A stretch of DNA of 64,000 nt from Methanoplanus endosymbiosus (GTDB lineage Archaea; Halobacteriota; Methanomicrobia; Methanomicrobiales; Methanomicrobiaceae), in contig NZ_CP096115.1 in NCBI RefSeq assembly GCF_024662215.1, positions 310,001 through 374,000 of the forward strand, read 5' to 3'. The notes under the pieces are model-generated. The model did not search any database. It was given only the letters and a program-made list of their open reading frames with translations, and was not told the DNA's origin. Position 1 is the stretch's first letter, and each line of letters starts with the position of its first letter. The position numbers were made by a program, and so were the translations under genes. Of this stretch, positions 6,622 to 55,799 are shown piece by piece.

Positions 6622-9267
6622 ATGAGTAAGGGCCCAACACCTGCGATGAAGCAGTTTTACGACTTAAAAGACAAATATCCCGGAACAATCCTCTTTTTCC
6701 AGATGGGGGACTTCTATGAGACATTTGGAGAGGATGCTGAGGTTGTTGCCAGTGAGCTGGACATAACCCTGACATCCCGCGGCAGAGATATAAACGGTGA
6801 AAAGATGGCTCTTGCCGGAGTTCCGATCCATGCAGGAGAGACATACATCTCAAGGATGGTACAGAAGGGTTACCGTGTTGCTGTCTGTGACCAGATTGAA
6901 GATCCAAAAAAGGCAAAGGGCATAGTAAAAAGAGATGTTGTAAGAGTCATCACACCCGGAACTGTAATCGACTCATCAATGATTGGAACTTCGGGATCAT
7001 GCTACCTGATGTCACTTGACTACAACTCCAAAAAAAATGAATTTGGCATGGCATTTCTTGATGTCTCAACCGGAGAATTTTTTATATCAGAATGCAGGGA
7101 GAGCAATGGCTATACATCACTTAATTCTGAGATTGTGCGTTATAGCCCGTCTGAATGTATAGTCTCCCAAAAAGTTCCGGAATCAGCAATAAAAGAGCTT
7201 GAAAATAAAAATATTCTCATAACTCCGTACAACACAAGGGCATTTGATTATGAAACTGCCAGGGATTTCCTTCAGGATTACTTCAGTGTATCATCACTTG
7301 AAGGATTTGGCTGCATGGGCATGGATCTTGCCATCGGATCTGCCGGAGCATGCCTTTCATACGCCTGCTATACCCAGAAAAAAGACCTTGGACATATAAG
7401 AAAACTGTCTGTCAGAATTCCGGAGAACAGCATGGTTCTCGATGCAATCACGCTTAGAAATCTCGAAATTCTGGAGAACATAAGAAACCGTGGGAAGGAC
7501 ACATCCCTCTTTGGCGTATTAAATGATACAAAAACCTCAATGGGAATAAGAATCCTGAAGAAATTCCTGACAGCCCCGCTGATAAACAAAGAAGATATCG
7601 GGAAGAGACATGACGCAGTTGAATACTTCCTGAACAACTCCGCCACAAGATATAAACTGCGGGGACATTTACACAAATTCCCGGACATTGAAAGAATTGC
7701 CGGAAGGATCTCATACGGCAATGCAGGCCCGCGTGATCTCGTCACACTCAAAAATGCACTGCTTAAAATTCCGGAGATAAAATATCTTATAAATCCGGCA
7801 TCCGAAAGACTTCCAGCACTAATACGGGAGTCTGTTTCCGGTGCAGAGGCACTCACTGACGTAACAGAACTCATTGAATCTGCAATTAATGATGAACCGC
7901 CTGTCCTTGCAAGAACAGGAGGCGTAATCCGGGATGGTTACAGCAGTGAACTTGATGAACTCAGGGATATTGCATATTCAGGCAAAAACTGGATTGCAGA
8001 ATTTCAGCAGGGTGAAAGGGAGAGAACCGGAATCAAATCCTTAAAGGTAGGATTTAATAAAGTATCCGGATACTATATCGAAGTCACAAAGTCGAATCTC
8101 AGCCTTGTCCCACCCGAATACCTGAGAAAACAGACAATGTCAAACGGTGAGAGATATACCCTTCCGGTTTTGCAGGAGAAGGAATCTCTCATATCAAATG
8201 CAGAGGAGAAACTGCTTGCACTTGAACTTGAATTATTCAACAGCTTAATCTTATCACTTGCAGAAGTTGTCCCGGCAATACAGAAGACATCCGGACATAT
8301 CGGTCTTCTGGATGTATATGCAGCATTTAGCAATGTATCAGATCTATACAACTATAAACGTCCGGTGATTGAAAATTCCGGCAGGCTCATCATATCAGAC
8401 GGCCGCCACCCTGTTGTTGAGAGAAACATGGATAACAGTTTTGTGCCGAATGATTCCGGACTTGAAAGTGAGAGCGAACAGATCTTAATCATCACCGGAG
8501 CAAACATGGCAGGAAAATCCACCTACATGCGCCAGGTTGCCCTGATAACAGTAATGGCACAGGCAGGATGCTTTGTCCCCGCAGCCAGTGCTGTGATAGG
8601 AATTGTGGACCGGATATTTACCCGCGTTGGTGCATTTGATGATCTCTCAAGCGGCCAGAGTACATTTATGGTTGAGATGCTTGAACTCGCCAATATTCTT
8701 AATAACATCACCGACAAAAGTCTTGTAATTCTTGATGAGATCGGCAGGGGGACAAGCACACTTGACGGCTACTCCATTGCAAAGGCAGTGCTTGAATTCC
8801 TTCACGGCAGATCAAAGAGCGGACCGAGGACACTATTTGCAACGCATTTCCATGAGATGGTCGGGATGGAAGGTGAACTTAAGAGAGTGAGCAATTATCA
8901 TTTCGCTGTAAACGAGACCGGAAGGGATGTAGTATTCCTCAGAAAACTTATTCCGGGTGCGACAGACAGGAGCTATGGTATCCATGTTGCAAAGCTTGCC
9001 GGAATCCCAAAGAAAGTGCTTGACAGGTCATCTGAAATCCTGAAATTGGAACAGGAGAGAGAATACTCAGTTCCCGGAAGAATACAGCCGAGATACACCC
9101 AGATGCTGCTTATAGATCAGGGAGATTGTGCATCTGTTCATGATTGTGGGAATGGTGGAAAACTTGCAGAGAGGATAAGGGAGATAGATACTGATTCACT
9201 CACTCCAAGGGAAGCACTTGCACTGATATATACTCTAAAAGAAGAAGCCGGAGATGAGATGAATTGA
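6622..9267 (+). CDS. mutS: DNA mismatch repair ATPase MutS
   Basis: Bacterial-type MutS1 of 881 residues from this start. It recognises mispairs and small loops and recruits MutL. The mismatch-wedging motif GDFYETF sits near residue 31. The lever and clamp regions follow. The ATPase has Walker A (GANMAGKST, ~8494-8526), Walker B with signature (LDEIGRGTSTLDG, ~8722-8760), and the FATHFHEM histidine. The ATG at 6622 gives the family-typical N-terminus MSKGPTPAMKQ; an ATG at 6571 and a TTG at 6556 are in frame and cannot be excluded, as none has a good ribosome binding site. A CTATAATAAA element at ~6596-6605 may be the TATA box. The stop codon overlaps the mutL start. Confidence 0.95.
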   Translation: MSKGPTPAMKQFYDLKDKYPGTILFFQMGDFYETFGEDAEVVASELDITLTSRGRDINGEKMALAGVPIHAGETYISRMVQKGYRVAVCDQIEDPKKAKGIVKRDVVRVITPGTVIDSSMIGTSGSCYLMSLDYNSKKNEFGMAFLDVSTGEFFISECRESNGYTSLNSEIVRYSPSECIVSQKVPESAIKELENKNILITPYNTRAFDYETARDFLQDYFSVSSLEGFGCMGMDLAIGSAGACLSYACYTQKKDLGHIRKLSVRIPENSMVLDAITLRNLEILENIRNRGKDTSLFGVLNDTKTSMGIRILKKFLTAPLINKEDIGKRHDAVEYFLNNSATRYKLRGHLHKFPDIERIAGRISYGNAGPRDLVTLKNALLKIPEIKYLINPASERLPALIRESVSGAEALTDVTELIESAINDEPPVLARTGGVIRDGYSSELDELRDIAYSGKNWIAEFQQGERERTGIKSLKVGFNKVSGYYIEVTKSNLSLVPPEYLRKQTMSNGERYTLPVLQEKESLISNAEEKLLALELELFNSLILSLAEVVPAIQKTSGHIGLLDVYAAFSNVSDLYNYKRPVIENSGRLIISDGRHPVVERNMDNSFVPNDSGLESESEQILIITGANMAGKSTYMRQVALITVMAQAGCFVPAASAVIGIVDRIFTRVGAFDDLSSGQSTFMVEMLELANILNNITDKSLVILDEIGRGTSTLDGYSIAKAVLEFLHGRSKSGPRTLFATHFHEMVGMEGELKRVSNYHFAVNETGRDVVFLRKLIPGATDRSYGIHVAKLAGIPKKVLDRSSEILKLEQEREYSVPGRIQPRYTQMLLIDQGDCASVHDCGNGGKLAERIREIDTDSLTPREALALIYTLKEEAGDEMN

Positions 9268-53074: not shown

Positions 53075-54001
53075 TTAACTTTCTGCAATTATTTTTTCAG
53101 ATTTTTGTGAAAGAATTTTAAAATATCTGCTCTTTTTTAATAGTTTAAAGACCATTTTATCTGTAAATTTAAAATCAAAATTCCCCCCGGCAGCAGGTGG
53201 GTGCCCGCCTCCGTTAAACTCCTTTGCTATCAGGTGACTTACAGGCGGTTCTGATCTTATTGAAAATCTTCCGTTTTCAGAGACTATTACTTCTATATCT
53301 GTCCCCATCCTGTCCCTGATTGCATGGGCAGTTTCACTTGGGTATCCATACAGAGGAGCAAAGGCAATTTTGTATTTACCACTGTATATCTTCGTTTTTT
53401 TGATGCTCTTCTCAATTGCTTCGTTTCTTTCCTTCTCAATATGTGAATATATCCGTTCGATCTCTTCATCGATCATTATGCCTTCTGTAAGGCGGTCACG
53501 CACATAATTCAGGTTTTTCCTTTTGGAGCAGACCTCTCCAAGAATTTTTGACCTTGGATCATTATGCTTCCAGAGGTCATAATCACAGACAACCTTTGCA
53601 ATCTCTGATGAGGATTTGTCTCCAGGCATCAGGTCCTTTGCAACAATTCCTGTTGCGCATACCGATGTGTCCACCTGAAGGTATTCAACAAGATCTTCTG
53701 TCTCCTTAATTTCCTCATCTGTCCACCTGTGATGATCACGCCATTCAATCTTCCACCCTTTTGAGACGGCTTTTCTGACATATCTGTCAATTCCTTTCTG
53801 ATAGCCAAGATCTGAAATGCTGAGTATGTCCCCTTTTCCTTCGGTTTCTGAGATGTTTTTTAAATTACTGATAAAACCTCCGACTGACGACCAGACGGTG
53901 AATATATCTCCTCCGTATTTTCTTCTGTGGATTGCATCACATCCGGCAGCATCCAGATCGTTGTGGGTCAGGTGAACAATACCCGATCTTCTCTGCCTCA
54001 C
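53075..54001 (-). CDS. DHH/DHHA1 family phosphoesterase
   Basis: 308-residue protein of the DHH superfamily, which includes RecJ-like nucleases and oligo-RNA/c-di-AMP phosphodiesterases. The metal-binding DxD motif is HLTHNDLDAAGCDA, the DHH box is EWRDHHRW, and the DHHA1 substrate motif is EFNGGGHPPAAGG. The first Asp motif reads HND rather than the frequent DxD. A GAN-like RecJ role at the fork is possible, but the protein lacks the DNA-binding OB extension. It stands alone. Confidence 0.83.
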   Translation of the reverse strand: MRQRRSGIVHLTHNDLDAAGCDAIHRRKYGGDIFTVWSSVGGFISNLKNISETEGKGDILSISDLGYQKGIDRYVRKAVSKGWKIEWRDHHRWTDEEIKETEDLVEYLQVDTSVCATGIVAKDLMPGDKSSSEIAKVVCDYDLWKHNDPRSKILGEVCSKRKNLNYVRDRLTEGIMIDEEIERIYSHIEKERNEAIEKSIKKTKIYSGKYKIAFAPLYGYPSETAHAIRDRMGTDIEVIVSENGRFSIRSEPPVSHLIAKEFNGGGHPPAAGGNFDFKFTDKMVFKLLKKSRYFKILSQKSEKIIAES

Positions 54002-54394: not shown

Positions 54395-54468
54395 GCCTCA
54401 ATAGCTCAGCCTGGGAGAGCGCCAGACTGAAGATCTGGTTGTCCCCGGTTCAAATCCGGGTTGAGGCA
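54395..54468 (+). tRNA. tRNA-Phe(GAA)
   Basis: 74-nt cloverleaf. The acceptor GCCTCAA pairs with TTGAGGC, discriminator A at 54468. The anticodon arm is CCAGA-CTGAAGA-TCTGG with GAA at 54429-54431. The T arm is CCCGG-TTCAAAT-CCGGG. No intron and no encoded CCA. Confidence 0.95.
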
Positions 54469-54635: not shown

Positions 54636-55799
54636 ATGAAAAACCCTTTTCATGTTATGCTGATTCCGACATTAGGATGTCCGGCAAACTGCGAATACTG
54701 CTGGAGTTCTGAGGTGGGTTCTCCGGTTATGCCCATTGAGACAGTTAAGGAGATTGTTGAATGGCTTAAGGACTTCAGAAAAGATGACCGGGTGACTATT
54801 ACATTTCATGGAGGTGAACCTCTGCTTGCAGGCGAGGAATTTTACAGGCAGGCACTCCCTCTGCTTTCCGAAGGTCTAAGCCACCTCAGTCCTGAATTTG
54901 CAATACAGAGCAATCTCTGGCTTATGACAACCGAAATGGCAAAGATCTTTGCAGAATACAGTGTACCTGTAGGCTCAAGCATAGACGGACCTGAGGAGAT
55001 CAATGATGTTCAGAGGGGAAAGGGATATTACAGAAAAACCCTCGAGGGATATAAAATTGCAGTTGAAAACGGACTTAATGTCAGATTCATCTGCACCTTT
55101 ACAAATCAGTCCACAAAGAGAAAGGAAGAGATCTTTGAATTCTTCTATGAAAACGGCCTTGTGCTGAAACTTCACCCGGCACTTCCCTCGTTAAGAGGCA
55201 GTGATCCTGATAAATGGGCGCTGCCACCTGAGGAGTACGGCGAACTGTTAGTATATCTTCTGGACATGGCACTTGAACATCTGGATGATATGGAGATTAT
55301 GAACATCAATGATCTCTGCCGGGGTGTCTTTACAAGAAGGGGTAATGTATGTACATTTGCCGACTGCATGGGGACAACCTTTGCAATCGGGCCTGACGGT
55401 GCAATTTATCCCTGTTATCGTTTTGTAGGCATGCCTGAGTATGTCATGGGCAATGTATATGATCATCCGACAGTAGAAGATCTCTCTGAATCTCCAGCCT
55501 GGAAACTGATGTATGAGTTTAAGGATTATGTTGATTCTGCATGCAGTGAATGCAGACATATAAGGTACTGCCGTGGCGGCTGTCCATATAATGCAATAGT
55601 TCCCTGCGGCGGAAAGGTTGCCGGAGTTGATCCACATTGTCCGGCATATAAGAGAATATATGATGAGATAACTGACCGTATGGATGACGAAATGTTCAAT
55701 TCACCACCTCCCGGAATGTCTCCTTTTGGCGCGATGAACGGCGAAAAAACAGCCCCCGGAGTGATGTCACTTATCAGAAAAATTGTCATGAATCAGTAG
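54636..55799 (+). CDS. Peptide-modifying radical SAM enzyme with SPASM domain, Mhun_1560-like
   Basis: 387 residues from ATG 54636 (MKNPFHVMLIPTLG); 47 more codons are open upstream but look non-coding. The radical SAM core has Cys-x3-Cys-x2-Cys (GCPANCEYCW), and the C-terminal SPASM-type region is cysteine-rich (NVCTFADCMGTT, IYPCYRF, ACSECRHIRYCRGGCP, VPCGG, PHCPAY), for two auxiliary 4Fe-4S clusters. It resembles the methanogen-specific Mhun_1560 family of putative peptide-modifying enzymes, recalled from family knowledge. No Cys-rich substrate peptide was found within ~1 kb on either side. A leaderless start from ATTCATTAAATAG (~54606-54618) is plausible. Confidence 0.8.
   Translation: MKNPFHVMLIPTLGCPANCEYCWSSEVGSPVMPIETVKEIVEWLKDFRKDDRVTITFHGGEPLLAGEEFYRQALPLLSEGLSHLSPEFAIQSNLWLMTTEMAKIFAEYSVPVGSSIDGPEEINDVQRGKGYYRKTLEGYKIAVENGLNVRFICTFTNQSTKRKEEIFEFFYENGLVLKLHPALPSLRGSDPDKWALPPEEYGELLVYLLDMALEHLDDMEIMNINDLCRGVFTRRGNVCTFADCMGTTFAIGPDGAIYPCYRFVGMPEYVMGNVYDHPTVEDLSESPAWKLMYEFKDYVDSACSECRHIRYCRGGCPYNAIVPCGGKVAGVDPHCPAYKRIYDEITDRMDDEMFNSPPPGMSPFGAMNGEKTAPGVMSLIRKIVMNQ

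Follow-up and report, generated by a model that had tools for sequence, protein, structure and literature searches.

Methyl-coenzyme M reductase (MCR) is the source of nearly all biological methane and also initiates the anaerobic oxidation of methane. One of the enzymes that act on it, Mmp10 (MamA, TIGR03278), is a cobalamin-dependent radical SAM C-methylase of an McrA arginine. Another radical SAM enzyme, MgmA, is described in the accessible text of PMC11796369 as a glutamine C-methylase that installs one variable McrA modification. As far as the accessible text goes, Table 1 of PMC9081873 lists five modifications each for the MCRs of Methanosarcina barkeri and Methanosarcina acetivorans, of which methyl-Arg, thio-Gly, and S-methyl-Cys each have an assigned enzyme (PMC9081873 and PMC7058361). 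Didehydroaspartate was reported in MCR in 2016, as cited in later papers. The accessible part of a 2020 review (PMC7581889) gives no enzyme for it, and a 2021 structure paper (PMC8070964) calls its machinery unknown in the text available. In the accessible passages and listings of the open literature on didehydroaspartate and on radical SAM/SPASM enzymes of MCR, we found no enzyme assigned.

Radical SAM and SPASM domains occur together in RiPP maturases such as DynA, PapB, and the SCIFF maturase. The anaerobic sulfatase maturase (anSME) acts on an entire protein. It oxidizes one side chain, from whose C-beta it abstracts a hydrogen, and the electrons leave through auxiliary clusters.

Here we analyze a radical SAM/SPASM gene of Methanoplanus endosymbiosus that lies in a stretch of 64,000 nucleotides (contig NZ_CP096115.1, positions 310,001 to 374,000), hereafter called the window. 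A sequence-only reading of the window had taken the product for a peptide-modifying enzyme that lacks a visible substrate peptide. Our analysis points to a maturation enzyme of MCR, most likely the one that forms didehydroaspartate in McrA, with a probability of about 0.6.

The Gene and Its Product

The gene is an intact open reading frame of 387 residues with an ATG start. The features of the locus are as follows.

54636..55799, plus strand: coding sequence, 387 residues, radical SAM/SPASM enzyme of the TIGR04083 family and proposed modifier of MCR (McrA) (TIGR04083, Pfam, and fold)
54678..54701, plus strand: CxxxCxxC motif with C15, C19, and C22 (40 of 40 alignment rows; aligned with anSME)
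55350..55640, plus strand: SPASM domain with eight conserved cysteines (40 of 40 rows; Pfam; aligned with 4k36)
54395..54468, plus strand: tRNA-Phe (GAA), a neighbor only, outside the system (ARAGORN)

The protein matches the TIGR04083 model over its entire length (1–376 of 376) and scores 680.4 bits, where 300 is the cut-off, which makes it a member of that family. Pfam finds the Radical_SAM and SPASM domains, the latter at residues 244–306. The CxxxCxxC motif binds the radical SAM [4Fe-4S] cluster, and the eight conserved SPASM cysteines (C239, C244, C260, C303, C306, C312, C316, and C335) should be enough for two auxiliary [4Fe-4S] clusters. All 11 cysteines are present in every row of a 40-row alignment, two rows of which repeat genes already there. 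The enzyme thus belongs to the radical SAM/SPASM class, and its cysteines are complete, as had been read from the window. The N-terminal MKNPFH is common to homologues such as those at loci L151, L152, and L156, and identity to 15 relatives from several families is 61–72%. TIGR04083 is found in 24 of the 28 genomes of the window's own family, and in 17 of 17 among the good assemblies; there is nearly always a single match per genome.

The gene stands alone. Upstream is the tRNA-Phe gene and before that an open reading frame of 308 residues on the minus strand (53075-54001), and a histidine kinase gene lies downstream on the opposite strand. PADLOC gave nothing for the enzyme beyond a weak viperin match of 33 bits. 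Relatives on viral contigs are only 22–33% identical, and the plasmid records, among the matches listed (20 of 36), contain only distant radical SAM relatives of less than 29% identity.

Comparison with Known Radical SAM Enzymes

An AlphaFold2 model calculated with the 40-row alignment has a mean pLDDT of 87.6. The structure that it matches best is that of the anaerobic sulfatase maturase, with a Z score of 35.5 and, over 353 residues, an rmsd of 2.9 and 23% identity. The likeness to anSMEcpe (4K36-4K39, TIGR03942) extends over the whole fold, and the ladder of cysteines aligns. In the predicted model the alignment with anSME already begins at residue 3, so that no extra N-terminal domain is left over, where the recognition element (RRE) of a RiPP maturase would lie. 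We propose that the likeness also includes abstraction of a C-beta hydrogen and exit of the electrons through the auxiliary clusters, although the proposed product here would be a double bond and not an aldehyde. The window protein is not a sulfatase maturase, because it scores only 155.7 bits against the TIGR03942 cut-off of 349.45 and because the aspartate that follows an auxiliary-cluster cysteine in anSMEcpe (PCD), where it is the catalytic base, is replaced by Tyr261, which is invariant in 40 of 40 rows of the family.

After TIGR04083, the next best HMM for the window protein is DynA (NF041298), at 164.5 bits. The protein shares the radical SAM and SPASM domains with DynA, with PapB (NF047865), and with the SCIFF maturase (TIGR03974), but it lies far below all of their cut-offs, no precursor was found near it, and it is conserved with mcrA. 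Mmp10, too, is of the radical SAM type, acts on McrA, and has a gene linked to the mcr genes, which in some families is a neighbor of the TIGR04083 gene; it belongs to a different family, however, and its chemistry is methylation instead of the dehydrogenation proposed here. Mmp10 is present in Ca. Ethanoperedens and in the M. jannaschii control, both of which are without a TIGR04083 match. MgmA is a B12-dependent methylase according to the accessible text of PMC11796369.

Search for a Cysteine-rich Substrate Peptide

Within 2 kb of the gene there are 50 open reading frames of 20–110 residues outside it, none of which is a convincing cysteine-rich peptide. The only one with four cysteines (25 residues, 53586-53660, minus strand) runs out of frame inside the 308-residue reading frame, and the gaps next to the gene contain no four-cysteine reading frame in this size range. 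This upholds the observation that no substrate peptide is visible around the gene. The sequence-only reading had also linked the Mhun_1560 group of enzymes to small cysteine-rich peptides, and it proposed a search for short cysteine-rich reading frames that co-occur with the gene. A search around the gene in 132 distinct loci with flanks of up to 2 kb (the window's own locus, a duplicate of L020, was surveyed separately) returned 428 small reading frames with at least four cysteines. None is widely conserved: the groups span at most seven loci, and those checked as candidates were rejected, as they overlap mcrA in antisense or out of frame. Thus no cognate precursor was found near the enzyme, either in the window or in the 132 loci as far as the flanks reach, and we found no such link in the data.

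TIGR04165, the NCBIfam model of a cysteine-rich methanogen peptide, gave a similar result. In a survey of the window's phylum, in which up to 17 candidates were scored per genome, none of the 392 genomes had a TIGR04165 match over the cut-off, whereas TIGR04083 passed its own in 132 of them. There is likewise no match over the cut-off in the organism's own genome, where the best weak match (25.5 bits, with an internal stop) and a weaker one fall on a tandem rubredoxin-like pair. Judged by eye from their translations, the matches below the cut-off at L001, L003, and L004 were rejected as the rubredoxin-like pair and a zinc ribbon-like reading frame of 116 residues. As a separate observation, the translations place the two tandem rubredoxin-like genes of the own genome (L001:1362-1731) just upstream of a gene for an A-type flavoprotein-like protein.

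Linkage to mcrA and mmp10

The relatives of the enzyme repeatedly adjoin mcr genes, and for this reason it is probably a modifier of MCR and not of a cysteine-rich peptide. Distances were counted in the 155 genomes that have coordinates for both genes, with 78 further carriers without a listed mcrA coordinate left out. The enzyme and mcrA are on one contig in 69 of the 155, and in 30 of these 69 they are at most 10 kb apart. We estimate that fewer than one of the 69 pairs would lie this close by chance. The enzyme is downstream of mcrA in all 30 close pairs and on the same strand in 25, and the pairs span families f3, f5, f7, f8, f22, f36, and f39. A distance of 500 bp or less is seen in 19 of the 155 genomes, with the enzyme downstream on the same strand in 18 of them. 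The other 125 carriers, that of the window included, do not have the enzyme within 10 kb of mcrA; for 86 of these the two genes are on different contigs.

All ten carriers of genus g61 have the enzyme within 490 bp after mcrA. At locus L149 the genes mmp10, mcrB, mcrG, mcrA, and that of the TIGR04083 enzyme form one cluster, as assigned with HMMs, and in the ANME-2c-type L145 (the contig of genome G441) the enzyme follows mcrA after 174 bp. Four loci of non-carriers in g61 (L165, L170, L173, and L174) have a hydantoinase-like gene after mcrA, and the same gene is found beyond the enzyme in the carriers L157 and, judged by its start, L149. A different gene follows mcrA in the non-carrier L175.

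Several small features were seen at these loci. Directly after the enzyme at L157 (genome G088, 7713-8243) there is a decayed second 3' end of mcrA with 90% DNA identity over 545 bp, which places the enzyme between mcrA and an mcrA remnant. The frame of the remnant is broken, and a reading frame of 121 residues within it carries the GFDLQDQCGATN loop. An origin of the remnant in a non-carrier lineage was considered and is not supported, as the remnant, with its broken frame, comes closest to the carrier L149. In a genome of the ANME-2d-type family (G450, L243:5454-5696), a reading frame of 81 residues with DnaJ-like CxxCxGxG repeats lies directly after mcrA, and the gene for the enzyme comes some 4.5 kb further downstream. 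Further small reading frames separate the enzyme from mcrA or mmp10, one of 109 residues (L155:6871-7197) and one of 113 residues at two loci (L029:962-1300 and L069:6474-6812). The latter is on the opposite strand between mmp10 and the enzyme, and it is similar in both genomes. With the thresholds applied, a scan of the L155 and L069 reading frames against NCBIfam gave no match.

Of the 24 loci in the window's own family, 5 have mmp10 next to the enzyme and on its strand. These five are all the carriers of genus g8 (L027/L069 and L028–L031), and at L030 the enzyme starts 3 bp past the mmp10 stop codon. In family f22, tblastn places mmp10 112–216 bp from the enzyme at L244, L245, and L247, which are not an unbiased sample because they were picked for a nearby mcrA. 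In M. endosymbiosus itself, the enzyme (position 364651), mmp10 (930135), and mcrA (2159062) are far apart, and the window by itself therefore shows no mcr linkage. The association with mcr genes and with a proven MCR modifier is thus seen in the relatives, not in the own genome.

Co-occurrence with mcrA and with Didehydroaspartate

Among the 392 genomes, mcrA is found in 127 of the 132 TIGR04083 carriers, compared with 95 of the 260 non-carriers (Fisher p 2e-34, with relatedness ignored). The five carriers without an mcrA match are all draft assemblies. Two genomes of genus g10 in family f2 (G030 and G060, 99% complete) are without the enzyme, while 12 other members of the genus carry it, G151 among them. 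G030 has two copies of mcrA, and G060, a draft, has no mcrA match.

To compare the gene with the modification, genomes were matched to organisms by aligning McrA with PDB chains, and the identities were judged by visual inspection of these alignments. The modification status was taken from Table 1 of PMC9081873 and from PMC12413448, PMC8070964, PMC7058361, PMC5943407, and PMC5589413, in so far as their text is accessible. The gene and didehydroaspartate are both present in four of the lineages: M. barkeri (G511, McrA identical to 1E6Y over 540 residues), M. acetivorans (G401, McrA identical to 8gf5 over 561 residues, TIGR04083 match on contig 1 at 4090849-4091973), the ANME-2c type (L145, McrA 1231 bits to 9qm5), and the ANME-2d type (G356, McrA 1223.6 bits to 9qqt). 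Both are absent in two others. In Ca. Ethanoperedens thermophilum (G405, McrA identical to 7B1S over 485 residues) the gene was not found and the modification is absent; Mmp10 was found in this genome with 483.6 bits, so that a general lack of such genes from the assembly is not the explanation. In family f10, which we judge to be of the ANME-1 type from one member, the enzyme is found in 0 of 37 genomes with mcrA, many of them drafts, and the modification is absent. The gene and the status of the modification thus agree in six of six lineages for which both could be compared, and each of the two negatives is a single lineage.

According to the accessible literature, the M. marburgensis MCR is modified as well, and those of M. 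wolfeii and Methermicoccus shengliensis are unmodified. Methermicoccus McrA was not found among 237 genomes of the class, where the best identity is 77%. The ANME-2d-type family f36 has 30 carriers versus at least three genomes with mcrA but without a match to the enzyme (G454, G461, and G466), and the modification should therefore vary within this family.

The column of the target aspartate contains Asp in every aligned McrA, in carriers and non-carriers alike, and because it is invariant with or without the gene, co-variation of the site gives no support. In McrA of families f18 and f31 (L192-L194 and L196), the DLQDQ loop is rewritten (e.g. QDSIDH and GEAVDL) with the aligned Asp kept.

Two other products were considered and rejected on their distribution. 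N1-methyl-His occurs in all MCRs tabulated in the accessible text of PMC9081873, among them the MCRs of Ethanoperedens and ANME-1, two lineages without the gene. In the same table neither of the two Methanosarcina MCRs has 6-hydroxy-Trp, and both organisms carry the gene. Didehydroaspartate is left as the candidate, because the other modifications of M. acetivorans either have an enzyme or do not fit the distribution.

Discussion

We conclude that MCR is very probably the substrate, as judged from gene neighborhood and co-occurrence, and given this substrate, didehydroaspartate is the likely product. The wider proposal, toward which we lean somewhat, is that TIGR04083 represents the MCR didehydroaspartate synthase, a sulfatase maturase-like radical SAM/SPASM dehydrogenase whose gain or loss, as a single gene, would switch one MCR modification on or off. 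In some lineages its gene lies within the mcr operon or beside it, or is paired with mmp10. The orphan-peptide reading is not supported, and MCR maturation takes its place. The suggestion that the substrate is encoded elsewhere holds in that it probably lies elsewhere in the own genome, but not in its form of a small cysteine-rich peptide. The outcome that was said to refute the peptide reading, a protein as the substrate, is what neighborhood and co-occurrence suggest, with MCR as that protein.

We infer the identity of the substrate, the residue, the radical steps, and the timing as follows. The target would be the conserved aspartate in the McrA loop G-F/Y-D-L-Q-D-Q-C, which is Asp470 in the M. 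acetivorans protein. The N-terminal cluster would cleave SAM, and the 5'-deoxyadenosyl radical would take a hydrogen from the C-beta of the aspartate side chain, in a two-electron oxidation of a protein by analogy with the anaerobic sulfatase maturase. The enzyme may act on McrA before or during assembly of MCR, so that it would face a folded or nascent substrate of 60 kDa.

Adjacency links the enzyme to MCR and is silent on which residue it modifies. The enzyme could act on a different residue or subunit of MCR, or by a different chemistry, for example in a change that crystallography and mass spectrometry have so far missed, or on McrC, McrD, or an assembly intermediate. We regard this as rather unlikely, though the least so of the alternatives, since the position beside mcrA and mmp10 and the co-occurrence with mcrA would fit any modification of MCR. 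New modifications are still appearing, such as the beta-methyl-His on the gamma chain of the ANME-2d MCR reported in 2025 (PMC12413448, accessible text), and Table 1 of PMC9081873, in the accessible text, lists no MCR from the Methanomicrobiales. Against it, among the five Methanosarcina modifications only didehydroaspartate is both without an enzyme and variable in the accessible text of PMC9081873, and 6-hydroxy-Trp and N1-methyl-His do not follow the gene. An improbable alternative is that the enzyme modifies some other conserved methanogen protein and that its nearness to mcr genes comes only from the common expression of genes for methanogenesis. In most carriers it is not within 10 kb of mcrA, and genes unrelated to MCR modification, such as the hydantoinase-like gene of g61, also border mcr operons. 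Such an explanation is at odds with the recurrent place directly after mcrA in several families, with the separate occurrence beside mmp10, and with the six of six agreement in didehydroaspartate status.

The remaining two alternatives follow from the relatives of the enzyme. NCBIfam labels the family "peptide-modifying," many of its SPASM relatives by HMM are RiPP maturases, and the TIGR04165 model bears the name methano_modCys, all of which would suit a RiPP maturase with a small cysteine-rich peptide encoded elsewhere in the genome. We consider this quite improbable in view of the absence of TIGR04165 matches over the cut-off from the genomes scored, the lack of a widely conserved cysteine-rich reading frame in the distinct loci, and the alignment with anSME that leaves no N-terminal domain to spare. 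The high identity among relatives and the nearly constant single match per genome are also unlike a diversifying RiPP system. That the enzyme makes formylglycine in a sulfatase is very improbable: anSME is its closest relative in the PDB by fold and sequence, and it does score with TIGR03942, but far under the cut-off and with the invariant Tyr261 in place of the catalytic Asp.

If the assignment of TIGR04083 to didehydroaspartate formation is true, any genome could be scored for this modification. M. acetivorans is genetically tractable, so that the reading would be directly testable by one deletion, and the gene could be added to the expression of MCR in foreign hosts. The chemistry of SPASM enzymes would be widened to protein dehydrogenation, and the "peptide-modifying" label of the family would be corrected.
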